From the NCBI RefSeq assembly GCF_007097485.1, contig NZ_VKDE01000020.1, positions 1-64,000 of the forward strand: 64,000 bases of DNA, read 5' to 3'. The stretch's first letter is position 1. Every line of letters starts with the position of its first letter. A model generated the notes under the pieces. That model saw only the letters and a list, made by a program, of their open reading frames with translations. It ran no database searches and was not told the DNA's origin. The DNA is from Carboxylicivirga sp. M1479 (GTDB taxonomy: Bacteria > Bacteroidota > Bacteroidia > Bacteroidales > Marinilabiliaceae). The position numbers and the translations under genes are program-made. Positions 35,027-46,572 of the stretch are shown here, piece by piece.

Positions 35027-36511
35027 CTATCTCCATTCTGGCATCTCGGCATTCTCGAAATACAATTCACGATTACTACCATCGACATCCATTACATATA
35101 TGTCTTTCTGTCCTGTTCCGGTATTAGATGTATTAACAAATATCATTTGCGATCCATCAGGCGAGTATATTGGCTGTAAATCATTAGTACCATTTACTTT
35201 ATTACCTCCCGAGAGATCAACCACTTCACCACTTGAAATATTATAGGTATAAATTCTCGAATCAAACATACGCCCATAAGGATCATCCACATTGGCATTA
35301 TCATGGGTATAAACAACATGCTTCCCATCTATACTAAATGACGGCCACTCGGTACGCCCGTCGGCATTATCAACTATTAAAGTCTGATCACTACCATCGT
35401 GATTCATTAAATACACTTCACTATCGTAAATGTTGACACCACGAGTTTGCACTACAATTTTATTAGAGTGTTGAGTCCAATCAACAAAAACATAATTACG
35501 CCCTGCCGGTGCAGTTGAAACAGAAAATAAACCACTACCATCTTTATTTATTCGATAGAGTTTATCGTAGTGACAGAACAAAACCTGATCACCCGTTGGA
35601 GACCAGCAGAAACCAGCACCTGAGTGATGATTACCATCAACTGGCAAAGGTGAAATCCTTTTAGTAACCTGATCCTCTCCATAGGTTAGGAAGATGTAAT
35701 TTTGAGAATTATAAGTTGCAGAATAGATCACCTCGTCAGTTACTGGGTTCGCTCTTGGAAAACGATTCAAAATAGTCTCATTGGTCATTCGGTGTCTCGA
35801 ACCTGCTTGCTCTATAGAAAGGTATATTTGTGCATCATCAGGATTAACAAACATGAATGGCAAACTCGAGCTACTAATCGTTCTAAAGTTCCAAAAGTCG
35901 CTTTGACCTATCTTCTCGTCGTTTTTTTTTGCTACAACAGTCCAAGAATGGTTTTTCGAATAACTTAAATTTTCGGCTACATAGAATGTATCCACTAAAT
36001 CTTCTACATAAATTACTGGATCAACCGATTCTGGTGTACGTACTGTTAACTCAAAATTGATGTCGCTTGAATCACTTACTCCAGAATACCCCCAAGAGAA
36101 AGTGATTGGAACTCCAACTTCATCTTCATTTTGAGCAGGTATTGGACTATCAAATTTAACTGTATTCGCAGCTAAATCCCCATCCTCTAATTGCATTATA
36201 ATTTCTGTTACCTCATTGGGTCTAACTTTAACAGCCAAAGAAGAATTTGCATACTCGTGCTTTGAAGCCGATACTACGTAATCCCCTTCCTCTAACTCAT
36301 CTAAAGTAAATCGACCATTAACATCAGTCTTTACAGAGCGACTAGCAGGATTAGTGGTAATTAAGGCTCCCTCTAATGGCATCCCTTCTACCTTACTCTC
36401 AATAACACCACTTATAGTTCCATAACTCTTGTTTTCAATGCCATCCTCACAAGAGGTTATCAAAAACAACGCTGCGACAATTACACAACTACTTAAAATA
36501 TATTTTATCAT
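35027..36511 (-). CDS. lipoprotein with carboxypeptidase-regulatory-like domain and PD40-type propeller
   Basis: This 494-residue protein has a lipoprotein signal with Cys21 in ITSCEDG. Next is a carboxypeptidase-regulatory-like domain (about 33-105, GTISGVIE ... DVNGRFTLDELEEGDYVV), an Fn3-like strand region (about 120-210) and a six-bladed-like TolB/PD40 propeller (about 225-494) with blade signatures SPTGDQVLF, SIDGKHVVYTHDN and SPDGSQMIFVN. It lies 8 bases after csgG in the same direction and is therefore probably the last gene of the curli unit. It may bind cell-wall or fibre components at the outer membrane (inference). Confidence 0.8.
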   Translation of the reverse strand: MIKYILSSCVIVAALFLITSCEDGIENKSYGTISGVIESKVEGMPLEGALITTNPASRSVKTDVNGRFTLDELEEGDYVVSASKHEYANSSLAVKVRPNEVTEIIMQLEDGDLAANTVKFDSPIPAQNEDEVGVPITFSWGYSGVSDSSDINFELTVRTPESVDPVIYVEDLVDTFYVAENLSYSKNHSWTVVAKKNDEKIGQSDFWNFRTISSSSLPFMFVNPDDAQIYLSIEQAGSRHRMTNETILNRFPRANPVTDEVIYSATYNSQNYIFLTYGEDQVTKRISPLPVDGNHHSGAGFCWSPTGDQVLFCHYDKLYRINKDGSGLFSVSTAPAGRNYVFVDWTQHSNKIVVQTRGVNIYDSEVYLMNHDGSDQTLIVDNADGRTEWPSFSIDGKHVVYTHDNANVDDPYGRMFDSRIYTYNISSGEVVDLSGGNKVNGTNDLQPIYSPDGSQMIFVNTSNTGTGQKDIYVMDVDGSNRELYFENAEMPEWR

Positions 36512-36519
36512 TTGATCTA

Positions 36520-37911
36520 TTATTTACGTTTTAGCAAAGTTTTCTTATACCAGCCACTACCTATTTGATAACTAACACCAATATTTCCCTCCCATAACAT
36601 ATCGTTATAACTTCCTCGTACTAAACCATCCAAATCATCTCTAGCAAAGTACTTGTTACCAATCGCCACATTAATCTTCACTCTTTTGGATAGAACATAA
36701 TCAAAGCCAAAGGTTCCGCTGCCATATGAATAGGTATTTTTCACGGCAGTGTCATCTGCCATATACTTATTCGTAAGCACTCCATATCCAATAGATAAAT
36801 AGGGGCTCACTCTTTCATTTGGCAACAAATCAAAACGAAAAGATGGTGTATAGCTTAGAAATTGATTATTTCCAATCACATCACTATCTAACTGGCCATA
36901 GTTTACTTCTTGATTAAAGGAAATAACAGGCGATAATCTTAAGTTCACATTTAATCCAGCCGTATAGCCCGCATTAGATCCTTCAATATCAACATCTGAA
37001 TACGCAAAGCCACTCACCAAACCAATAGATAACATACTTTCTCTATCATCGAAACGACGTCCTAAATGATCAATTTCAGCATTCTCCTTTTTTTCACTTA
37101 AATAATCATTAGCTACTTGCTCAATATACGCCACATTGCCACTTGAATTCCATAAACCATCAACAATCCCCTCAACAACTAAACCATAAACTGCCTTTTC
37201 AATAGCCTCTGTTACTGCCATTTCAGAGGGTTCGTTATAGGTTATACCTGTTTCAGCTTCTAAGAGGCGCTTAAACTTGACATACCTAAAAACTGAGAAA
37301 TCTATTTTTTGAGATAAAATAGATTTAGTACTATATACAGTTTTTAAGATTTCCCCATTTTTAGTAGATACAGCTCTCAGATAAATACTAACCCGATCTT
37401 CACGATACTGCCCTGACGCTCCCGCACCAAAATATCTCAGGCCAGCACCACCTGTACGTACGTTTGTTTCGTATGAAATAATACCACCTTCCAAGATAAT
37501 ACCTGCAAATAACAAAGGACTCAAGGCAGTTTGCCCCTTACCCTCGTACGCGGCTAAAGTATTTGTAATAATCTGTCTCTCTGCGCTTAAGTTCCCAAGA
37601 TTCTCTCTTTCCAGTGGTCTAAACCAGCCTGATTCCTCCAATGATCGAATAAGAATAGTAGTAGCTCCTTGGGTTACAGCTGTTGACCAACTTGAGCCAT
37701 ATTCTGTCGGCTTATACTGACCTGTTTGGTCTCTAAATTTATAAACAGCAGCAACCAACTTTTCTTGGGGCGGAGGCAAGCTTTTTAGCTCAGCATGAAA
37801 AGGTGTTTCAGCACCCAAGCGCGCAGGCTCAGTTTTTTGAGTCTGATGAATTGTTGGACTACACCCCCAAACGAGTACAACAACCAATATCTGTGCGAGG
37901 TATATTCTCAT
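36520..37911 (-). CDS. csgG: CsgG curli secretion channel with C-terminal beta-barrel extension
   Basis: CsgG forms the nonameric outer-membrane pore that exports curlin subunits. The lipobox cysteine is Cys17 (VWGCSP). The CsgG core (about residues 40-260) shows VAAVYKFRDQTGQYKP, GATTILIRSLEESGWF, FAGIILEGGIISYETN, GASGQYREDRVSIYLRAV and AVYGLVVEGIVDGLW, all closely CsgG-like. E. coli CsgG has 277 residues; this one has 463. The extra about 180 residues (from about 285) look like an eight-strand OmpA/OmpW-type barrel (SIGLVSGFAYSDV ... GNIGVSYQIGSGW). The gene lies between csgF and the lipoprotein gene. Confidence 0.93.
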   Translation of the reverse strand: MRIYLAQILVVVLVWGCSPTIHQTQKTEPARLGAETPFHAELKSLPPPQEKLVAAVYKFRDQTGQYKPTEYGSSWSTAVTQGATTILIRSLEESGWFRPLERENLGNLSAERQIITNTLAAYEGKGQTALSPLLFAGIILEGGIISYETNVRTGGAGLRYFGAGASGQYREDRVSIYLRAVSTKNGEILKTVYSTKSILSQKIDFSVFRYVKFKRLLEAETGITYNEPSEMAVTEAIEKAVYGLVVEGIVDGLWNSSGNVAYIEQVANDYLSEKKENAEIDHLGRRFDDRESMLSIGLVSGFAYSDVDIEGSNAGYTAGLNVNLRLSPVISFNQEVNYGQLDSDVIGNNQFLSYTPSFRFDLLPNERVSPYLSIGYGVLTNKYMADDTAVKNTYSYGSGTFGFDYVLSKRVKINVAIGNKYFARDDLDGLVRGSYNDMLWEGNIGVSYQIGSGWYKKTLLKRK

Positions 37912-37974
37912 TCTAAAAATCTTTATTTTTTCTTTCTATCTACCAATTCAGACATCGCCAAACAGGTAATACTT

Positions 37975-38376
37975 CTAGTTATTTGGAACAGTAACACTTG
38001 TCTGTCCACCATTCACAACATCTAAGATCGAAACATTAACACCTTCAGCTCCTTCTCCAACTTGAATATGGTAATCACCAACATCATATACCCCTGGTTG
38101 TAAATCACCATCACCAAATTGATCTTGTACTAACTTTCGGCTTAGTTGATACAAAATTTGCCTATTTAAATCCTCTTGAAAACTAGCTAAAGGATCATCA
38201 TTAGTTATCGCATCAGGATCTTTAAATGTATCCTGCGCTTGCGCCTGACTTAATAACCAAGAATAATTGTAAGTATCTCCTCCAAATGCTGGGTTTATAG
38301 GCTTATAAACAAAATCCTGAGAATAAGCGGTCATACCAAATAACAAACCCAAACCAACTAATACCAATAACTTCAT
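37975..38376 (-). CDS. csgF: CsgF curli assembly factor
   Basis: This 133-residue protein with a signal peptide (about 1-19, ending AYSQ) starts its mature part with the CsgF hallmark DFVYKPINPAFGG, the segment that in E. coli plugs into the CsgG pore and forms its second constriction. N-Y-S-W-LL-SQAQAQ follows. CsgF links secretion to nucleation at the cell surface. ATG 38376 is used; an in-frame TTG two codons upstream is unlikely. It sits 11 bases after csgE and 63 bases before csgG. Confidence 0.93.
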   Translation of the reverse strand: MKLLVLVGLGLLFGMTAYSQDFVYKPINPAFGGDTYNYSWLLSQAQAQDTFKDPDAITNDDPLASFQEDLNRQILYQLSRKLVQDQFGDGDLQPGVYDVGDYHIQVGEGAEGVNVSILDVVNGGQTSVTVPNN

Positions 38377-38387
38377 ATCCAATTGTT

Positions 38388-38915
38388 TTACTTATCGTTT
38401 TGCAGTTTTTTCTGCTGCTCAATAATGGCCCTTTGGGCAATAATTTCCTTATATATCTGCTGCTGCACAATACTCACAGCTACTTTTGCCATTGCCTCCA
38501 CTTCATCATATCGTCGCCTCATCATTTGCTGATATAACAATTGCTCCCTTAAATACACTTCAATAACCGTATTATTTAACTGAAACGGTCTCTCCTTCAC
38601 TTTTACGTAATAATTACGATACCCTTTTGGCTTTTGCCAATACGAAAAAAACAGTTCATAAAACTCGCGACCAGACTTTGACATGGTTTCATCCATGATG
38701 ATTCCGTCAATTTCTAAAGTCGCTGGTTTTACAAGCTGTTGTTTTCTATTCTTCTCGGCTTCTTTAACCTGCCGATCATATTCTTTTACTAAATCAATTA
38801 TCGCCTGTGGCACCTCTTTTCTTACACTATCCTGCTCCGTAGAGTCATTACTCTGACACAGCGCAAAACTTTTTATAAGAAAACTATACAAGACAATTAC
38901 TATCCATTTATACAT
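38388..38915 (-). CDS. csgE: CsgE curli secretion specificity factor
   Basis: This 175-residue periplasmic protein has a signal peptide (about 1-20, ending FALCQ). CsgE caps CsgG from inside and delivers curlin subunits. Family-specific sequence is present: EIDGIIMDETMSKSGREFYE near residues 67-86, FFSYWQKPKGYRNYYVKVKERP and NTVIEVYLREQ, followed by a C-terminal helical tail rich in Gln and Glu. It starts 5 bases after the 225-residue curlin gene, so the two are likely co-transcribed. Confidence 0.9.
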   Translation of the reverse strand: MYKWIVIVLYSFLIKSFALCQSNDSTEQDSVRKEVPQAIIDLVKEYDRQVKEAEKNRKQQLVKPATLEIDGIIMDETMSKSGREFYELFFSYWQKPKGYRNYYVKVKERPFQLNNTVIEVYLREQLLYQQMMRRRYDEVEAMAKVAVSIVQQQIYKEIIAQRAIIEQQKKLQNDK

Positions 38916-38920
38916 ACATA

Positions 38921-39598
38921 TCAGCGATGTTCGACACTTGCTTTTGCAGCATTACCCGTTTGCTTAATGTCTATTCCCCTATAACCAAAATACTGATTAT
39001 ATTCTAATTCATGTCCATTACCTTGTTGAACAACAGTTGTTGGCTGCTTATTTACATCCACAATATAATGACCACCTACCACTTTATTACCATTACCTTG
39101 TTGGCGAATATTTACATCATAATTAGAGCCTAGAGTATTTGTTGTAACAGAATTCCCTTTCCCTTTTTGTTGGATCGTAATATCATTCTTAGAACCCAAC
39201 GCAATTGTATTCTTAATGGAATTACCGTTACCTCTTTGGGATAAACTAATATGATTATCATTTCCTAGCAACACATTATTAGTAATAGAATTTTGTTTTC
39301 CACGCTGCTGAACATTAACATTATTTTGATGCCCAACACTAACGCTTTCTACTTTATTTCCATTACCTTTTTGCAATACAGCGGTAACATTTTCATGACC
39401 ATACTGATCAATAAAAGCTTCATGTCCTGTGTTTTGCTGGGAAACAACAACTGAATTATTAGTTCCTACTTGTTGAATAAAAGCAAGATTTCCCCGCTCT
39501 TCTTTTTGATGCCCTTTATTTTTTGGCTCATCCTTAGACTGTGCCGATAATAAACCAAGCACTAGCACAAATGATAGTAGAAAATATACTCTTTTCAT
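38921..39598 (-). CDS. curlin-repeat protein, minor/nucleator type
   Basis: This 225-residue secreted protein (signal peptide about 1-20, LGLLSAQ) has about eight curlin strand-turn repeats of the form x-I-x-x-Q-x-G-x-x-N-x-V (QQKGKGNSV, SQRGNGNSI, RQQGNGNKV). The repeats are Lys/Arg-rich and less regular than in the two larger curlins, and the tail (YRGIDIKQTGNAAKASVEHR) is basic. These traits recall CsgB, the nucleator, so a minor or nucleating role is inferred. It lies directly before csgE, and is separated from the larger curlin genes by a terminator. Confidence 0.75.
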   Translation of the reverse strand: MKRVYFLLSFVLVLGLLSAQSKDEPKNKGHQKEERGNLAFIQQVGTNNSVVVSQQNTGHEAFIDQYGHENVTAVLQKGNGNKVESVSVGHQNNVNVQQRGKQNSITNNVLLGNDNHISLSQRGNGNSIKNTIALGSKNDITIQQKGKGNSVTTNTLGSNYDVNIRQQGNGNKVVGGHYIVDVNKQPTTVVQQGNGHELEYNQYFGYRGIDIKQTGNAAKASVEHR

Positions 39599-39666
39599 GG
39601 CATCGTTTCTTTTATGAGTTAATAAAATTACTAAAAAAAACTACTTACAATAAAAAGTTTGATAAC

Positions 39667-39682
39667 CTACAGTAAACTGTAG
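39667..39682. promoter_or_regulatory. perfect 16-base palindrome upstream of the 225-residue curlin gene
   Basis: CTACAGTAAACTGTAG is a 7-bp perfect inverted repeat with a 2-base centre, 69 bases upstream of the start at 39598. It could be an operator for the csgE/F/G half of the locus or a transcript hairpin. No -7 box with good spacing is visible nearby. Confidence 0.4.
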
Positions 39683-39714
39683 ATGAACAAAGAAATTTCC
39701 ATTATAAATAAAAA

Positions 39715-39743
39715 ATTGAAGGAGCAAAATCTGCTCCTTCAAT
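39715..39743 (-). terminator. intra-cluster terminator after the 587-residue curlin gene
   Basis: A perfect 12-bp stem ATTGAAGGAGCA/TGCTCCTTCAAT (39715-39726 with 39732-39743), followed by a T-run on the minus strand, lies 15 bases beyond the stop codon at 39758. It would lower expression of the following nucleator and export genes relative to the fibre subunits. Confidence 0.85.
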
Positions 39744-39757
39744 TACTTTTATAGAAC

Positions 39758-41521
39758 CTATGGCTGCACTACATTTCCACTTTGAAGTACTGTAGCCGAA
39801 TGATTTGAACCTGTTTGAGAAATAGTTCCCATATGACCACCATTACCTGTTTGGTCAACTAAGGCATTATTATTACCACCAAATTGTTGAGTAATAATAG
39901 CAGTATGATCATCACCTGACTGCTGAACCATAGCGGTACTTCCTGATTGTAGATACTGGCTAATTTGAGCATCTAAATTAGAACCACCAGCTACACCTTG
40001 AATACCTTGGTAAATAGTTGCATCATTGCCACCACCTAGAGTTTGTAAAATACCAGCTGTTGAACCTTCAACACCCCATCTTTGCCATACATATGCTTCT
40101 GACTCATTTTCCATTGCCTGTGCAACACCAGCAATGTTACCATCACCAACCTGCTGAATAGTTATTTTCGACTTGTAAGTCATCAGTTGACCAGTAATTG
40201 CTAAGTTATCATCACCGGCTTGAATAACTGCTGTTCTAGACATTTCTGACATGGCTTGGCCAACTAGGGCTACTGAAGTTTCTCCAGTTTGACGTACACC
40301 TGCATAATTTTTAGAACCACCATACTGACCAATTGCTGCAACGTTCAATTCAGAACCATCCAATTGCTTAACAACAGCTTTATTACCATAACCATCAACT
40401 TGACCTACAGCAGCCACACTTGCAACACCAAACTGCTCAACATCTGCTACCTCAAACGAACCAGTTTGCGTTACAACACCAGCATTATAAAGACCTTTTT
40501 GATGCACAGTTACATCACCATCATTACCTGACTGATTAACCCATGCAACTGCAGAGTATCCTAACAAAGCTTCTCCACCTTCTGCATCTTGAGTTACTTT
40601 TGCTGTATTATTTGTTCCTGTCTGATCAACCCATGCTCCTAATAAATTACCATTCTGCTCAATAAGTGCATCGTGAGATTCTCCACTTTGAGAAATAGAG
40701 CCTAAGTTATCTAAATCACTTTTTCCCCAATTGGTTTGCTGATCAATCTTTGCTACGTTTGACTCTCCAACTTGAGTAATACCAGCATAGTTATCACTTT
40801 CAGTTTGAATAGTTTCTGCATCATTACCTGTACCAGTTTGGCTAATTTCAGTTACATTACCACCTTGAACTCCATTTTTATCCTGGTAAACACGAGCATC
40901 ATTTGATTCACCATCCTGATAAACAGTAGCATCTTGACCATCACCTTTTTGATACACATCAGCATCATTGCTTAAACCCATTTGATCAACATCAGCGACA
41001 TTTTCACTACCACTTTGCCAAACATAAGAATCATTTGCTTCCCCATCTTGATAAATATCAGACATATTCAAATTGCCATCCTGTAGAGTTTTGGCAACAT
41101 TACCTTCTCCATCTTGATAAATTGTAGATGTATTTTCAACATCTCTTTTACCAATATTGCTCTCTTGATCAATTTCAGCAACATTAGACGTTCCCATCTG
41201 AGTAATATAACCTTTGTTATCATCTTCCGACTGAAGAATTGTGGCATCATTACCAATTCCTTCTTGAGTTACGTTACCAACATTACCACCAGCAACCGTT
41301 GCAATATCTTGTGAAACCAAAGCAGTATTAGATGTACCTGTTTGCACAACCTCTGACTGCTGAAAATCACCAGCTTGGTTCACATCAGCTTGATTAAGAT
41401 CACCCGACTGAGTAATTGTACCAACATGATTAACACCACTTTGAACTACATTTCCATTGTTTTGTGCGAAAGCAACAACTGCTAAAGCGCTAAGCGCCAC
41501 ACTAAAGAGTAACTTTTTCAT
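39758..41521 (-). CDS. long curlin-repeat fibre subunit (CsgA-like, about 47 strand units)
   Basis: This 587-residue secreted amyloid-type protein has a signal peptide (about 1-19, VVAFAQ). The rest is curlin repeats with the pattern x-V-x-Q-x-G-x-x-N-x-A, about 47 strand-turn units of some 11 residues, equal to about 23 full curlin repeats, against five in E. coli CsgA. Residues about 78-140 and 220-282 are near copies (the units around SQTGTGNDA and WGKSDLDNLG), showing duplication of a large block. Gln and Asn ladder residues are well kept. The start at 41521 gives a normal signal peptide. It lies 43 bases after the 261-residue curlin gene. Confidence 0.88.
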   Translation of the reverse strand: MKKLLFSVALSALAVVAFAQNNGNVVQSGVNHVGTITQSGDLNQADVNQAGDFQQSEVVQTGTSNTALVSQDIATVAGGNVGNVTQEGIGNDATILQSEDDNKGYITQMGTSNVAEIDQESNIGKRDVENTSTIYQDGEGNVAKTLQDGNLNMSDIYQDGEANDSYVWQSGSENVADVDQMGLSNDADVYQKGDGQDATVYQDGESNDARVYQDKNGVQGGNVTEISQTGTGNDAETIQTESDNYAGITQVGESNVAKIDQQTNWGKSDLDNLGSISQSGESHDALIEQNGNLLGAWVDQTGTNNTAKVTQDAEGGEALLGYSAVAWVNQSGNDGDVTVHQKGLYNAGVVTQTGSFEVADVEQFGVASVAAVGQVDGYGNKAVVKQLDGSELNVAAIGQYGGSKNYAGVRQTGETSVALVGQAMSEMSRTAVIQAGDDNLAITGQLMTYKSKITIQQVGDGNIAGVAQAMENESEAYVWQRWGVEGSTAGILQTLGGGNDATIYQGIQGVAGGSNLDAQISQYLQSGSTAMVQQSGDDHTAIITQQFGGNNNALVDQTGNGGHMGTISQTGSNHSATVLQSGNVVQP

Positions 41522-41563
41522 GATTATTTGTTTTAGGTAAAACATTAATTATTAAATATTTAT

Positions 41564-42349
41564 TTATTGTTTTTGCTCTACTAAAGCATTATTTCTATTT
41601 CCAATTTGTATCGTTGTACTTTTATTTCTATCTCCTTGCTGATCAATATTCGCCACATTACCCTCTCCTAGCTGAAGAGCATTCATCATATTGCCGGCTC
41701 CTTTTTTCTGCACAACACTTGCCTTATTGGATACTCCTATTTGAGTGACATTAGCCTCCTGGCTCTTTCCATATTGATCAATGTCAGCCATATTACCTTT
41801 ACCACCTTGATAAAGGGCAGCTTTACTATTAACTACGTCTCCACTTCCCATTTGATAGATATCACCAACATTATCCTCTCCCACCTGGGTAATAAAGACC
41901 TGGTTACCTCGGTAATACTGTTTTACTTTTGCTTTATTGGCAACTCCTCCTTGAATAATTGTGGTTTCATTACCTCCTCTATTGTATCGATCTTTTTGAA
42001 TCAACTCTACTTCGTTACCAACACCTACTTGCAAAACATTATTACGATTACCTACTCCCTCTTGCTTCACATTAAGCAAATTCATCTGACCAACTTGTGA
42101 CTGAAGACTTACGTTATTATTCCCACTACTATTAACTTCAGCAACATTGCTTTTTCCATATTGAAGGGTAGTGTTCTGGTTAGCATCTCCACTCTGAAAA
42201 AGGTTAGCCATATTTAAAGTACCAATCTGAGCATTTACTAATTGGTTGTTAGTACCTTTTTGCTCTACACGTGAAGAGTTAGATACTTGAGAATATCCAA
42301 CTTGCGACAAGAGCATAAGACTTAATATTAATAATGTGTGTTGTTTCAT
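41564..42349 (-). CDS. curlin-repeat fibre subunit (first gene of the curli unit)
   Basis: This 261-residue secreted protein has a signal peptide (MKQHTLLILSLMLLSQVGYS, then Q) and about twenty curlin strand-turn units (VEQKGTNNQ, LFQSGDANQ, IDQYGKSQEA, ALQLGEGNVA). The most regular units are at the C-terminus. The ATG at 42349 is chosen for the clean signal peptide; in-frame ATGs further up would place the start inside the promoter region. A near-consensus sigma-54 promoter lies 33-48 bases upstream, and the 587-residue curlin follows in the same unit. Confidence 0.85.
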   Translation of the reverse strand: MKQHTLLILSLMLLSQVGYSQVSNSSRVEQKGTNNQLVNAQIGTLNMANLFQSGDANQNTTLQYGKSNVAEVNSSGNNNVSLQSQVGQMNLLNVKQEGVGNRNNVLQVGVGNEVELIQKDRYNRGGNETTIIQGGVANKAKVKQYYRGNQVFITQVGEDNVGDIYQMGSGDVVNSKAALYQGGKGNMADIDQYGKSQEANVTQIGVSNKASVVQKKGAGNMMNALQLGEGNVANIDQQGDRNKSTTIQIGNRNNALVEQKQ

Positions 42350-42381
42350 TTCTGAAATCATTTTTAGGTTGCTTGTCATAT

Positions 42382-42397
42382 AACAACAGATGTGCCA
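42382..42397 (-). promoter_or_regulatory. sigma-54 (-24/-12) promoter of the curli unit
   Basis: The minus strand reads TGGCACA-TCTG-TTGTT. The sigma-54 consensus is TGGCACR-N4-TTGCW, so the -24 element is exact and the -12 element differs at one base (T for C). The predicted start of transcription is near 42371, giving a leader of about 22 bases before the ATG at 42349. The adjacent NtrC-type activator gene supports the reading. Confidence 0.65.
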
Positions 42398-42463
42398 ATA
42401 CATTCATTAGACTGATTAATAGATACATAGCCAAAGTAAAGCAAGAATGAGTACTATACAACC

Positions 42464-42477
42464 GACCATTTTTGGTC
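42464..42477. promoter_or_regulatory. possible activator binding palindrome (UAS) upstream of the curli promoter
   Basis: GACCATTTTTGGTC is a 5-bp-arm inverted repeat centred about 100 bases upstream of the predicted sigma-54 start site, the usual place for an NtrC-type enhancer. The same core, read on the other strand, forms the terminator at 42778-42795. A second inverted repeat, ATCACAT/ATGTGAT (42505-42511 with 42525-42531), lies slightly further upstream. The rest of the 448-base gap (42350-42797) holds no gene. Confidence 0.4.
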
Positions 42478-42777
42478 ATCATCCAAAAAAACATGCAATC
42501 CAAAATCACATTAAATACCTATATATGTGATGCTTAAAATTGTAAAATAACACAATCAGCTTTCTGACCTAAATCGGCCACTACCTACTTTATTTATTAA
42601 TTACAGAGGAAAAATTCAACTAATCCATTTTTTCAGCAAAACGTAAAATAGGATAGAAACACTCTATTCAAAGACTAAAATGGAAATTTTATTGACGAAT
42701 GAACTTGCACAAAACAAAGAGTAAAAAAGACCATTCTAGACTGTAGTGATCTCCACATTTTTTGGGACAAAAAAAAA

Positions 42778-42795
42778 GCGACCAAAAATGGTCGC
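42778..42795 (-). terminator. terminator of the response-regulator gene
   Basis: A perfect 7-bp stem GCGACCA/TGGTCGC with an A4 loop, followed on the minus strand by a T-run, starts 3 bases beyond the stop at 42798. Confidence 0.8.
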
Positions 42796-42797
42796 CT

Positions 42798-44156
42798 CTA
42801 TTCTATTCCGTGTTTTTTAAGCTTTCGATTGAGAGCTTGCCGTGTAATATTGAGCTTTTCAGCAGTATGGGTTTTATTATGACTACAGGCTTTCATCGCC
42901 TTCAGAATAGTTTCCTTCTCCACGGTTTCCAAGCTATAATCATACCCATCACCAATGCCATTATTAGTCTGTTCGGTAAAATTTAAATGCTGTGCTTTTA
43001 TTACATTAGAGTCACACATTAATATGGCACGTTCAATTAAGTTTTTAAGCTCTCGAATATTCCCAGGATAATGATGATTTACCAACAAATTCATTGCTTT
43101 TGAGTGCATACTAACAATTCCTTTGCTATGAGTCTCGGAAAACAACCGAACAAAATGATTTACTAAAACAGGAATATCTTCATTTCGCTCACGCAATGGG
43201 GGAATATGAATATGAAAGGAATTTAATCGATGGTACAAGTCTAAACGAAACTGACCATCTTCAATCATTTTTTTCAAATCCTTATTCGTGGCACACACAA
43301 TTCGCGTATCAACATTAATAACATCATGTGATCCAATCCGTGTTACTTTACGCTCATCTAAAACTCGCAGCAACTTAGATTGCAAAGCCAAATTCATATC
43401 TCCAATTTCATCAAGAAATAAGGTTCCTCCGTTAGCTCTCTCAAACCACCCTTCATGATTCGCTAAAGCACCTGTAAAAGCACCTTTTTGATAGCCAAAA
43501 AATTCACTCTCAAATAAAGAATCCGGTATGGCAGTACAATTAACTGGATAAAATGGTGTACCACTTCTCTCACTCATACTATGAATACCGCGTGCAATCA
43601 ACTCCTTACCACTACCACTTTCTCCTGTTATCATTACGGAGGTTGCATCTGCTTGCGCTACCCTTTTCATTAAGGTATTTATTTCTTTAATCGACTGACT
43701 AACACCTATAAACTCGATCCCCCAATGTGCTTCAAACTTTTTTCTAGACTCCTCTAATTGACGATCAGCCACATAGTTTTTAACACGAAACTGCTTATAA
43801 CTCTCACACTTTTCAATTGCAGCCCTTATATCTTTAGCTCTAAATGGTTTTTCAATATAATCGCGAACACCTAACTTAACAGATGCAATGGCATTTTTAA
43901 CACTGGCTTGCCCTGTAATTATAATCCCTTCAATATCAACATATCGCTCTTTAAGGTCTTGAAAAATAGACAAGCCATCTTTACCAGCCAGATTTATATC
44001 GAGAATAGCTAACTTGGGAGTACGCTCCAGCTTGGTAGCAACAAATTGATCCCACGACTCAAAAGCGCAAACTTCAACACCATCAAGCAAAATACTTTCC
44101 TTAATCTCTTGCCTAAGCTCTACTTCATCCTCAAATAGCAATATTGAATATTTCAT
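42798..44156 (-). CDS. NtrC-family sigma-54-dependent response regulator
   Basis: This 452-residue protein has three domains. The receiver (1-120) has acidic pair Glu9-Asp10, phospho-acceptor Asp53 (AILDINLAGKDG) and Lys103. The AAA+ domain (about 148-385) has Walker A GESGSGKE at 178-185 and the sigma-54 contact loop GAFTGA at 225-230, with Walker B near GGTLFLDEIGDM. A Fis-type HTH (about 410-452, ending TRQALNRKLKKHGIE) binds DNA. It should activate sigma-54 promoters when phosphorylated, most likely by the kinase just upstream. The curli unit begins 449 bases downstream, with a matching promoter. Confidence 0.95.
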   Translation of the reverse strand: MKYSILLFEDEVELRQEIKESILLDGVEVCAFESWDQFVATKLERTPKLAILDINLAGKDGLSIFQDLKERYVDIEGIIITGQASVKNAIASVKLGVRDYIEKPFRAKDIRAAIEKCESYKQFRVKNYVADRQLEESRKKFEAHWGIEFIGVSQSIKEINTLMKRVAQADATSVMITGESGSGKELIARGIHSMSERSGTPFYPVNCTAIPDSLFESEFFGYQKGAFTGALANHEGWFERANGGTLFLDEIGDMNLALQSKLLRVLDERKVTRIGSHDVINVDTRIVCATNKDLKKMIEDGQFRLDLYHRLNSFHIHIPPLRERNEDIPVLVNHFVRLFSETHSKGIVSMHSKAMNLLVNHHYPGNIRELKNLIERAILMCDSNVIKAQHLNFTEQTNNGIGDGYDYSLETVEKETILKAMKACSHNKTHTAEKLNITRQALNRKLKKHGIE

Positions 44157-44170
44157 GTGATTATATTTTG

Positions 44171-44252
44171 TTTTTTATTGCCACATGGAACTCTCAAATA
44201 AATTTAATCATCCTCCTGTGTGAAAATTTAGATAATCAAATTTACATGGTCA
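44171..44252 (+). repeat. dispersed repeat, copy C
   Basis: It carries the 20-mer shared with copy B (44186-44205) and the second shared block at 44210-44251 (form ATCCTCCTGTGTGAAAATTTAGATAATCAAA). The block spacing is about 47 bases shorter than in copy B. It lies just upstream of the response-regulator start, in the gap between the kinase and regulator genes. Confidence 0.6.
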
Positions 44253-44274
44253 TTTCATCTGTTTATAATTTTGT

Positions 44275-44336
44275 TTTAATTGCCATATGGAACTCGCCAA
44301 AATCATTTATTCTCATGGCTTGTTTCATAATAATCT
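44275..44336 (+). repeat. dispersed repeat, copy D
   Basis: It opens with TTTTAATTGCCATATGGAAC, like copy C (TTTTTATTGCCACATGGAAC), and then follows the copy A version (exact 15-mer at 44288-44302 and the block at 44314-44335). Copies C and D are direct repeats about 102 bases apart and fill most of the 299-base gap 44157-44455, which has no gene. Confidence 0.6.
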
Positions 44337-44455
44337 AGCAATTACCAGTCATCGCTTTATCACTTCACATTGCAAATCTTCTTTTTACTCTTTGGCGACA
44401 ATATTCTTAATGATAAAATTTAACTGGTTATGGTTCGTTGATTTGCTTAGTATAA

Positions 44456-45928
44456 TTACTGATCAATTTCTTTAATCATAGGGAACGAGAGTGTTGTTTT
44501 AAAATATTTTCCATAAATAGAGTCAACACTTAGTGCCCCATTCATTTTACGCATGAGATTGTTAATAATAAACAAGCCTAAACCCGTTCCGCCGATATCC
44601 TTTTTTGTTGTGAAGAATGGCTTGAAAACATTCTCAACATCTTCACTTTTAACGCCCAAGCCATTATCGATAAAAACAATCTTTATTAAATCATCTTCAA
44701 TCTTAAATACAACTTTAAGCTTTGGCTTAAATCCTGATTCTGCAGCTTTTTTCAGCTGTAAAGACTGCAAACTGTTGGTTAGAAGATTTACAAAAACCTG
44801 TTCTAATTCATTCTCCGAACCATTGATCTTAATGTCATCCAAATGACTTACGACCAAAATTAAGCCATCAACTTGCATATACCTGACATCTTCTAAAGCA
44901 CAATTCAGCACCTTACGAACATTCACAAGGTCATCTCTACGATCTGGCACTGTTGAAAATAATTTCATCTCATCAATAATACCTCGCATACGAGAAATTT
45001 GCCTTTGAATCTGCTCTGTCTTTGACATTAAATAGGCCTCATCAACTTCCCCTCTACTCCAACGATCAATCATATTATCAATCTTCAGGCTTAAATGCGT
45101 TAAGGGCTGATTAAGCTCGTGGAAAATACCAGAAGCTATTTCGCCCAAGGATTCCAAGCGGTTTTTCTGAAGAAGTTTTATTTCATAGGATTTATTGATT
45201 TCAAACTCATCCTGCACCTGCTTTCTTAATTCCTGATTCTGATCTTCTAAATTTTGTTGAACCTCGATGAACTGCGTTAAGTCTTTTATGGCAGCTAAGT
45301 ATAACTTATCATTCGTCAGCTCTAAGGGTATCAAGTTCAATAAAAACGTTTGATTATTCTCAGTTCCTTTAAAATGGCAAAGCACTGCTCTACTGTTAGC
45401 ATCAGACTCAGTCATTTTTAAATAATCAAACTTCTCTGGAGAAAGTACATTCGTTTTTATAACGTCCTGAATATACACCGGCATTACAACTACAGGACTA
45501 TCAATAAAGAAATCAATAAACAAGCGGTTAAAACGACTTATTTCGCCGTCTTTTTTAACAATCGCAATAGGATAAGGCAGCTTATCAATTGAAATACTCC
45601 CTTTTAACTTATCCTGCGGCTTTATATTTCCTTTTATTTCACACGCTCCGCCTTCATTCAAAACAAAAGAACACTCAACAAGGGCTAACTGACCTTTAAC
45701 ACAAATTGTTAGGTCCTTAACAAAAGGCCCATCCTCACTCTTCAGAAACTCCTTGTACATATCTAACAAAGCAGGCACAAGCTTTGCACTCCTTTGCTCA
45801 TCAGGGATGGCAGAACACCAAGGTACATTCTCTCGAATAGAAGACATTTTTCCATTATTATCAATTATATAATAGAATGCTTCCAAGGGGAACGATTCGG
45901 CACTAATTAAGTGATCATTTAGATACAT
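44456..45928 (-). CDS. soluble sensor histidine kinase, partner of the NtrC-type regulator
   Basis: This 490-residue protein has no membrane helix. Two PAS-like regions are suggested at about residues 10-100 and 112-222 (the second with IAIVKKDGEISRFNRLFIDF), then a coiled coil (about 223-258, Gln/Glu-rich). The kinase core has the H-box GIFHELNQPLTHLSLK with His270, the N-box NELEQVFVNLLTNSLQSL, and G boxes FIDNGLGV and GGTGLGLFIINNLM. It resembles NtrB/AtoS-type kinases that work with sigma-54 activators. It lies upstream of the regulator gene in the same direction, with 299 bases between. The signal sensed is unknown. Confidence 0.92.
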   Translation of the reverse strand: MYLNDHLISAESFPLEAFYYIIDNNGKMSSIRENVPWCSAIPDEQRSAKLVPALLDMYKEFLKSEDGPFVKDLTICVKGQLALVECSFVLNEGGACEIKGNIKPQDKLKGSISIDKLPYPIAIVKKDGEISRFNRLFIDFFIDSPVVVMPVYIQDVIKTNVLSPEKFDYLKMTESDANSRAVLCHFKGTENNQTFLLNLIPLELTNDKLYLAAIKDLTQFIEVQQNLEDQNQELRKQVQDEFEINKSYEIKLLQKNRLESLGEIASGIFHELNQPLTHLSLKIDNMIDRWSRGEVDEAYLMSKTEQIQRQISRMRGIIDEMKLFSTVPDRRDDLVNVRKVLNCALEDVRYMQVDGLILVVSHLDDIKINGSENELEQVFVNLLTNSLQSLQLKKAAESGFKPKLKVVFKIEDDLIKIVFIDNGLGVKSEDVENVFKPFFTTKKDIGGTGLGLFIINNLMRKMNGALSVDSIYGKYFKTTLSFPMIKEIDQ

Positions 45929-46083
45929 ACAAATAACATCATCTGTTCATTGAACAAATAAAAGTATGTCGAATAAATTAATAATACAGGAAAAATTGAT
46001 TTACGGCTACTTTCCTAAGACTATCGTAGAATTTTCTTAGACAAACAATCAATCTAAAGGTACTTAATAATAACTAAAGCTCT

Positions 46084-46572
46084 CTAAAATGGCAATTGCT
46101 TAACCCAGTTTCGAATTCTTGAATCGGACAAATCAGGCTCATTATCTTCATCTAAAGCCAGACCAACAAATTCCTCTCCGATTACGGCTTCCGATTCTGA
46201 GAAATCATATCCTTCGATAGAGGTTTTTCCTACGACATTCCAGCCTTTATCAACCAGCAACTGATATAACTTACCCATTCCATTACAGAAAGTATCCGGA
46301 TAAGTATGCTGATCTCCCAAGCCAAAGAGTGCAAAGGTTTTTTGCGACATATCCAAAGACAACAAAAGGTCAACAAACAACTCAAAATCATCTTGTAAAT
46401 TACCTATACCCCAAGTTGATGTGCCTAATATCAAATGATCATATTTGAGCAACTGACTTCCCAATAAGTCATTAACAGGAAGACAATCGGCATGAGGTAA
46501 TTCCTTACTGATTTTTTCAGCAATAAACTGTGTATTACCAAGAGAAGAACCAAATAAAATTGCTGTTTGCAT
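46084..46572 (-). CDS. fldA: flavodoxin
   Basis: This 162-residue protein is a long-chain flavodoxin. The FMN phosphate loop is LFGSSLGNTQFIAEKI near residues 6-21 (usual form GSxTGNT; here SSLGNT). The isoalloxazine loops are STWGIGNLQDDFELF near 52-66 and FGLGDQHTYPDTFCNGMG near 84-101. It ferries low-potential electrons and often replaces ferredoxin under iron limitation. It stands alone between the histidine kinase and the methyltransferase; a CTAAGA/TCTTAG hairpin (46015-46040) past the stop may terminate it. Confidence 0.93.
   Translation of the reverse strand: MQTAILFGSSLGNTQFIAEKISKELPHADCLPVNDLLGSQLLKYDHLILGTSTWGIGNLQDDFELFVDLLLSLDMSQKTFALFGLGDQHTYPDTFCNGMGKLYQLLVDKGWNVVGKTSIEGYDFSESEAVIGEEFVGLALDEDNEPDLSDSRIRNWVKQLPF

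Follow-up and report, generated by a model that had tools for sequence, protein, structure and literature searches.

A predicted sigma-54-dependent kinase–regulator–curli module in Carboxylicivirga and its near kin

Curli are amyloid surface fibers. In the Enterobacteriaceae, the csgBAC operon is controlled by CsgD, a dedicated regulator encoded along with the curli genes, and we propose a comparable arrangement for the locus described here; however, CsgD is characterized as a FixJ/LuxR-type protein in the portion of PMC3535384 drawn upon, whereas the neighbor of curli in the present case is an NtrC-type AAA+ protein accompanied by a -24/-12 promoter. According to the part of Dueholm et al. 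considered here, Bacteroidetes other than Spirosoma lack csgD, and other modes of regulation may operate in some genera (PMC3521004). Hence, while the NtrC-type neighbor bears out the first-pass annotation of this DNA, which set the locus apart from the known CsgD control, the contrast is less novel than was stated. A further likeness is to the PrsK/PrsR–RpoN system of PEP-CTERM genes and flocs, which, in the excerpted text of PMC9850573, combines an RpoN-dependent aggregation gene, a TGGCAC -24 motif and a probable kinase/Fis-type regulator pair, as we propose here. The PrsR system targets PEP-CTERM proteins, as against curli in the present proposal, and the kinase of our locus is without a membrane segment by hydropathy; moreover, the best NCBIfam match of our regulator is indeed PrsR (TIGR02915), but its 376.3 bits fall below the curated cut-off of 502.6 bits, so that by this cut-off it is not a PrsR. 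In E. coli, deletion of rpoN lowered curli in a screen, with no direct promoter described in the sections of PMC5745457 used here. As for surveys of the sigma-54 regulon, curli go untreated in the main text as far as it was available, appearing only in a reference of PMC3162934 and without mention in the available part of PMC12316311. Our searches for literature on curli and sigma-54 in Bacteroidetes, and on Carboxylicivirga and curli, returned nothing, and a description of the curli circuit proposed below was likewise not found in the literature searched (subscription papers being mostly outside its scope).

The window, i.e., the whole stretch of 64,000 nucleotides analyzed here, thus brings together known parts in a combination for which we found no curli description. 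We consider it very probable that they constitute a self-contained module of Carboxylicivirga and its near kin, in which a kinase, an NtrC-type regulator and sigma-54 act on curli. The parts themselves are observed directly, as are their conservation, the constancy of their spacing and the way they occur or are missing together in relatives, and all this supports the following mechanism as a prediction. The soluble histidine kinase would phosphorylate the neighboring NtrC-type regulator, which would then bind GACC-N6-GGTC palindromes above the curlins, principally one centered about -99 from the predicted start and additionally others near -201 and -415. DNA looping would bring the regulator to the sigma-54 polymerase held at the -24/-12 element, and its GAFTGA loop would open this polymerase for transcription to begin. 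The curlin–csgEFG operon, probably a single transcript, would be transcribed only when the kinase is active. The first-pass annotation had also viewed curli as a sigma-54 regulon under the adjacent regulator; this stands as a sequence-based prediction in light of the fixed spacing in 9/9 loci, the GAFTGA motif and rpoN (one match in this genome and present in 14/14 genomes of the genus), with the off-consensus -12 speaking against it. The choice of this particular activator draws on linkage and joint loss, since the genome holds other NtrC-type activators.

Table 1. Positions of the kinase, regulator, curli genes and predicted regulatory elements in the window.
Feature	Position	Strand	Basis or remark
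Histidine kinase, soluble (HisKA + HATPase_c), probable cognate sensor	44456..45928	-	Pfam; HisKA just below cut-off
NtrC-type response regulator (REC–sigma-54 AAA+ with GAFTGA–Fis HTH), proposed activator	42798..44156	-	Pfam and alignment
Site 3, palindrome GACCATTTTTGGTC	42780..42793	-	-396 from -24 TGG; exact copy at -389 to -396 in 8/9 loci
Conserved block in the regulator–curli intergenic region	42644..42710	-	aligned in 7 loci, in another comparison 5
Site 2, degenerate palindrome GGCCGATTTAGGTC	42566..42579	-	-182; at most 1 mismatch at -181/-182 in 5/9 loci, exact at -173 in L066
Site 1, palindrome GACCAAAAATGGTC (plus strand GACCATTTTTGGTC), proposed main activator site	42464..42477	-	-80 from -24 TGG; center about -99 from predicted start
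Candidate sigma-54 promoter of the curli operon, TTGGCAC-ATCTG-TTGTT	42382..42398	-	TGG, A and TTG invariant in 9/9 loci
Predicted transcription start	42371 (about)	-	spacing from -12; leader of 22 bases
First curlin, MKQHT start	41564..42349	-	PF07012 2.3e-23; MKQHT start in 5/9 loci
Second, large curlin	39758..41521	-	PF07012 6.2e-55
Third curlin	38921..39598	-	PF07012 1.9e-15
CsgE	38388..38915	-	PF10627 7.3e-21
CsgF	37975..38376	-	PF10614 6e-40
CsgG with C-terminal OMP beta-barrel-like domain	36520..37911	-	PF03783 1.4e-63, PF13505 2.4e-7
CarboxypepD_reg/PD40 protein, closing the conserved cassette ahead of yebC	35027..36511	-	Pfam; gene order

The curli (nucleation–precipitation) system is complete in the window, with curlin repeats, CsgG, CsgE and CsgF all detected above the cut-offs of their four Pfam models, and a scan of the 10 proteins encoded from 35027 to 46572 yielded no LuxR-type (GerE) match of the kind found in CsgD. 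The adjacent regulator had been read as possessing GAFTGA and a Fis-HTH, which Pfam and alignment uphold: PF00158, PF00072 and PF02954 are all above cut-off, defining it as an NtrC-type enhancer-binding protein, and its best solved chain is 4l4u of the NtrC family. Its own genome has seven NtrC-type matches with an E of 1e-60 or better, this regulator among them. The kinase retains an intact H-box (FHELNQP), shows no sensor domain by Pfam and has a top Kyte–Doolittle mean over 19 residues of 1.51, i.e., no predicted membrane segment. The two genes are separated by 299 bases (44157-44455), as against under 100 bases in most fetched relatives, and this gap contains two near-identical pieces, attgccacatggaactc and attgccatatggaactc.

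Among 71 genomes of the family, we recovered 10 orthologues of the regulator including that of the window (each scoring at least 549 bits, and the next-best match 374), with 58-87% identity among relatives. Our comparison set comprises the window and the nine other orthologue loci, eight of which precede curlin genes, giving nine curli-linked loci in all. Of the eight curli-linked relatives fetched, seven keep the order kinase–regulator–curlin–csgE–csgF–csgG; in the remaining one, L058, the contig breaks off within a curlin, and the CsgEFG genes are on another contig of the same genome (L115). In the window and L059-L063, the curli cassette is closely followed by yebC. The named records with a close relative of the regulator (7/23 loci, 59-87%) are from Carboxylicivirga species, a Saccharicrinis MAG, a Bacteroidales MAG and Marinilabiliaceae JC017.

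Read directly from the window, the minus strand at 42398-42382 is TTGGCACATCTGTTGTT, which precedes the ATG of the first curlin (42349-42347) by 32 bases; a longer ORF start of this curlin at 42403 would overlap the element. We used as the criterion for a sigma-54 promoter GG at -24 and GC at -12 with a 10-base spacing between them, and, as the first-pass annotation had it, the element departs from this at a single point: the -24 is perfect, the spacing is right and the -12 is GT in place of GC. The base following TTG is T in four, C in two and A in three of the nine curli-linked loci, and in the three relatives where the -12 dinucleotide is accordingly GA, function is less sure. TTGGCACN5TTGYW has a single exact match in the whole window, but allowing up to two mismatches yields 22 places as against 26.8 expected from shuffles, so that loose -24/-12 matches in the window carry no meaning; likewise, the 6 exact matches in the whole genome versus 4 for a reversed control pattern mean that a lone promoter site is not significant on its own. 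With loose matches at the level of shuffles and the genome counts of both motifs near or below control (for the palindromes, see below), single-genome statistics were dropped as support and, their counts being at chance level, relatives were used instead.

On the minus strand at 42477-42464 is GACCAAAAATGGTC, which starts 80 bases above the -24 element. This is the GACCA-N4-TGGTC palindrome that had been placed about 100 bases further up, and its center indeed falls about 99 bases above the predicted start. Across the nine loci it is exact at -79/-80 in seven and has two mismatches in L060 and L061. GACCAN4TGGTC is found exactly twice in the window, the second copy (site 3), which was absent from the first-pass annotation, being also the stem of the regulator's terminator hairpin with nine T after the stem on the minus strand. 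In the genome, the exact motif is rare and not enriched (6 versus 4 in the control), and the wider GACCRN4YGGTC gives 6 versus 14. Within the nine intergenic regions, exact GACC-N6-GGTC is seen 18 times as against 0.01 expected in shuffles, with clusters at -80, -182 and -395. The predicted enhancer would hence be a set of about three palindromes, one of them within the terminator of the regulator, all of which we treat as candidate activator sites. Activator sites for sigma-54 lie upstream, commonly 80-200 bases above the start, and the palindromes centered at about -99 and -201, which are conserved sites predicted from sequence only, are within this commonly seen range. The stretch from the regulator stop to the -395 palindrome is longer by about 540 bases in L059 and L062, with the distance from palindrome to promoter unchanged; these extra bases open with a second terminator-like palindrome. 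The same intergenic region also has a conserved block of about 60 bases (42644-42710; TGCAAGTTCATTCGTCAATAAAA...ATTTTAGTC...TTCTATCC on the minus strand), roughly 270-340 above the predicted start; no Rfam match up to E 1 was obtained anywhere in 42300-44500, this block included. In a narrow look for further targets of the regulator, the four other exact GACCAN4TGGTC sites of the genome (L022, L023, L024 and L027) showed no convincing -24/-12 within 350 bases downstream, with one weak TGGCAATACTTCTTGT match alongside L024.

The case for the promoter and the palindrome as functional elements is carried by their conservation. In 9/9 curli-linked loci, the first curlin is preceded by TGGYAY-N5-TTG, with a GACC-N6-GGTC-like palindrome starting 79-80 bases above the T of this element, although the nine loci, being related, are not independent. 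In ungapped columns, the TGG, A and TTG do not vary, nor do the two A that come next, and each of the two elements has a mean identity of 0.67 as against 0.41 elsewhere. In dinucleotide shuffles of the nine intergenic regions, a -24/-12-like element in place was recovered in 0 to 22 of 4000, and one with a palindrome (up to two mismatches) 79-80 bases upstream in 0/4000 for every locus, the pattern used having been widened after inspection of the nine loci from a stricter first version that found 4/9. Thus, conservation at a fixed spacing places both elements above chance. The distance to the curlin ATG is 149 bases in L058, since the first curlin there is of another type.

The genus itself provides a natural series of presence and absence. 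The regulator and CsgF are both found in 7/14 genomes (in G309, on separate contigs), whereas in 5/14 the site is empty, with the flavodoxin gene directly followed by yebC. One genome (G310) keeps the kinase and regulator, with the latter directly followed by yebC: CsgF is absent from this genome, and the fetched 17-kb stretch has no curlin match, no exact palindrome and no -24/-12 on the operon strand. GAFTGA is intact in 9/10 orthologues, namely all nine that precede curlin genes, and the sole altered version, GAFNGA, is that of G310. For PspF, the GAFTGA Thr is reported to be crucial to the contact with sigma-54; most proteins of this kind are severely impaired by changes to the motif, some NorR variants remaining active (PMC2941729, for the portion available). 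The G310 regulator has also evolved faster: with L063 as outgroup, it has 76 unique changes versus 20 in the protein of the window (p 7e-9), and p is 0.0043 or lower in all 15 relative-rate tests, as against no rate excess in 15/15 tests of its kinase (p 0.19 or higher). It is changed at 28 of 185 positions that are invariant in the other nine, with 25 of these in residues 156-367; however, the leave-one-out control gives 0-2 for the six nearest orthologues, 11/196 for L063, 28/213 for L065 and 43/228 for L066, and, as the distant L065 and L066 are comparable, only the rate test and GAFNGA single out G310. The genes flanking this locus are as conserved as in its peers and rpoN is still present; the estimated contamination of G310 is 6%, and the argument for loss rests on single genomes. 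In another genome (G304), curli and the regulator are absent from the site, and the orphan kinase that remains carries Tyr in place of the phospho-acceptor His. As the outgroups have the cassette, we infer loss rather than gain. Over the 71 family genomes, both regulator and CsgF are present in 9, the regulator only in 1, CsgF only in 6 and neither in 55 (Fisher p 6e-7, uncorrected for kinship). Kinase, regulator and curli genes hence appear to be kept or lost together, and the stages of this series (curli absent and the regulator motif altered, only a kinase lacking its histidine, and nothing left) point to the purpose of the regulator.

Six genomes of the family possess CsgF without the regulator. 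No NtrC-type match was found in the fetched stretches of the 11 near curli loci lacking the regulator; setting aside three without a curlin ORF (L071, L109 and L110), an intergenic -24/-12 on the operon strand precedes the curlins in 0/8, and all six -24/-12 matches in the 11 loci lie within ORFs. In five curli loci of sister genera, the same curlin–csgEFG cassette has a response-regulator gene just upstream, as in the window, but these regulators are of the REC-LytTR type (L067, L111, L112 and L113 by Pfam; L114, whose ORFs are near-identical to those of L067, by eye) and, unlike here, there is no -24/-12 before the curlins. An AraC-type hybrid is encoded upstream in L068. In G305, a second csgE–csgF–csgG set (L109, G305:C11:60000-77000) has neither a curlin ORF nor an NtrC-type match in the fetched stretch. 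Further afield in the phylum, we fetched 40 of 49 other genomes with a CsgF match, omitting nine at E 1.9e-6 or worse. Curlin-like ORFs are present in 37 of these 40 loci (none in L173, L193 or L206), and a -24/-12 element directly before a curlin ORF in 0/37. The operon strand of the phylum loci has six intergenic -24/-12-like matches, none of them directly preceding a curlin ORF; those of L203 and L173 lie 47 bases before a 157-residue ORF and 27 bases before a 239-residue ORF, respectively. An NtrC-type gene is seen in one of the 40 stretches (L188), on the opposite strand.

Against this backdrop, we weighed other accounts of the same observations. A true sigma-54 promoter could be driven by one or more other activators of the genome, with the neighboring regulator only modulating its output, and the other NtrC-type matches of the genome, six of them with an E of 1e-60 or better, are at hand for such a role. 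Yet the tight linkage in nine loci, the joint absence in the genus, the alteration of GAFTGA only where CsgF is gone and the position of the conserved palindromes between the regulator and curli together render this improbable. Curli might instead be expressed from a primary-sigma promoter, with the -24/-12 match being accidental and the palindromes serving another protein. The primary-sigma promoter motif of Bacteroidota is of the TAnnTTTG type, and this word is present in the intergenic region of 3/9 loci, which, along with single-genome statistics at chance level, would favor such a reading; however, these words do not coincide in position (lying -29, -196 and -158 from the ATG), whereas the -24/-12 core is invariant in 9/9, and we accord this account a very slight chance.

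We are equally disinclined to believe that the palindromes are mostly terminators or attenuators as opposed to activator sites. The -395 palindrome is a terminator stem followed by a T-run in the window and six relatives, and site 1 has nine T after it in L066 and five in L060. Nevertheless, site 1 is without such a T-run in the other seven loci and lies upstream of the predicted start, L065 has both its palindrome copies without a T-run, and an exact distance to the next promoter is needless for a terminator. A hybrid possibility, which we view as unlikely, is that the hairpin terminating the regulator also serves as a distant activator site, at a constant -395 from the curli promoter. If true, binding of the regulator could tune both the end of its own transcript and the firing of curli, and the kinase, regulator, sigma-54 promoter and amyloid genes would form one inheritable all-or-none cassette. 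The preferred reading, with the neighboring regulator as activator of a sigma-54 promoter, offers a concrete candidate circuit with predicted sites for curli regulation outside the CsgD lineages, in marine Bacteroidota that include several named strains. Were it to hold, amyloid fibers would join the surface structures that have been placed under sigma-54 (PMC3162934, in the part drawn upon).

Finally, the GT at -12 calls for comparison with other promoters. The E. coli pspA promoter reads TTGGCACGCAAATTGTA and, like the curli promoter here, combines a perfect -24 with GT at -12 (TTGTA). Its activator, PspF, responds to membrane stress and, unlike the regulator of our locus, lacks a receiver domain. 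By analogy with such promoters, TTGTT at -12 would probably be acceptable for sigma-54. Within the genus, we also came across multicopy putative small-RNA genes, each with a core AGATTTTTTTCATAGATTTGGGTTAGGTTA and a terminator-like hairpin (L018, at G000:C65:156511-156527 on the minus strand; L019, at G000:C65:181105-181121 on the plus strand; L221, L222 and L209-L220), which give weak Rfam matches to the Bacteroidetes FopS family, below the gathering score. All 18 copies viewed in the genus have a sigma-54-like -24/-12 just upstream, where TTG is followed by C in 11 copies, by G in 4, by T in 2 and by A in 1, i.e., a non-C at -12 in 7/18; this is a biased sample, as 15 of the 18 were found with a pattern or query containing the promoter, and their use of sigma-54 is itself presumptive. 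In other genera of the family, none of 18 matches to the core has a -24/-12 by the same pattern (20 stretches, five of them without a core match). Perhaps these genes are FopS-like paralogues that have moved under sigma-54. Elsewhere in the genome, TTGGCACTGATGTTGTA (L016, G000:C43:119071-119087, minus strand) lies about 30 bases before an ORF for a 245-residue membrane protein, rhomboid-like by eye, and is a candidate for another sigma-54 promoter of the TTGT type.
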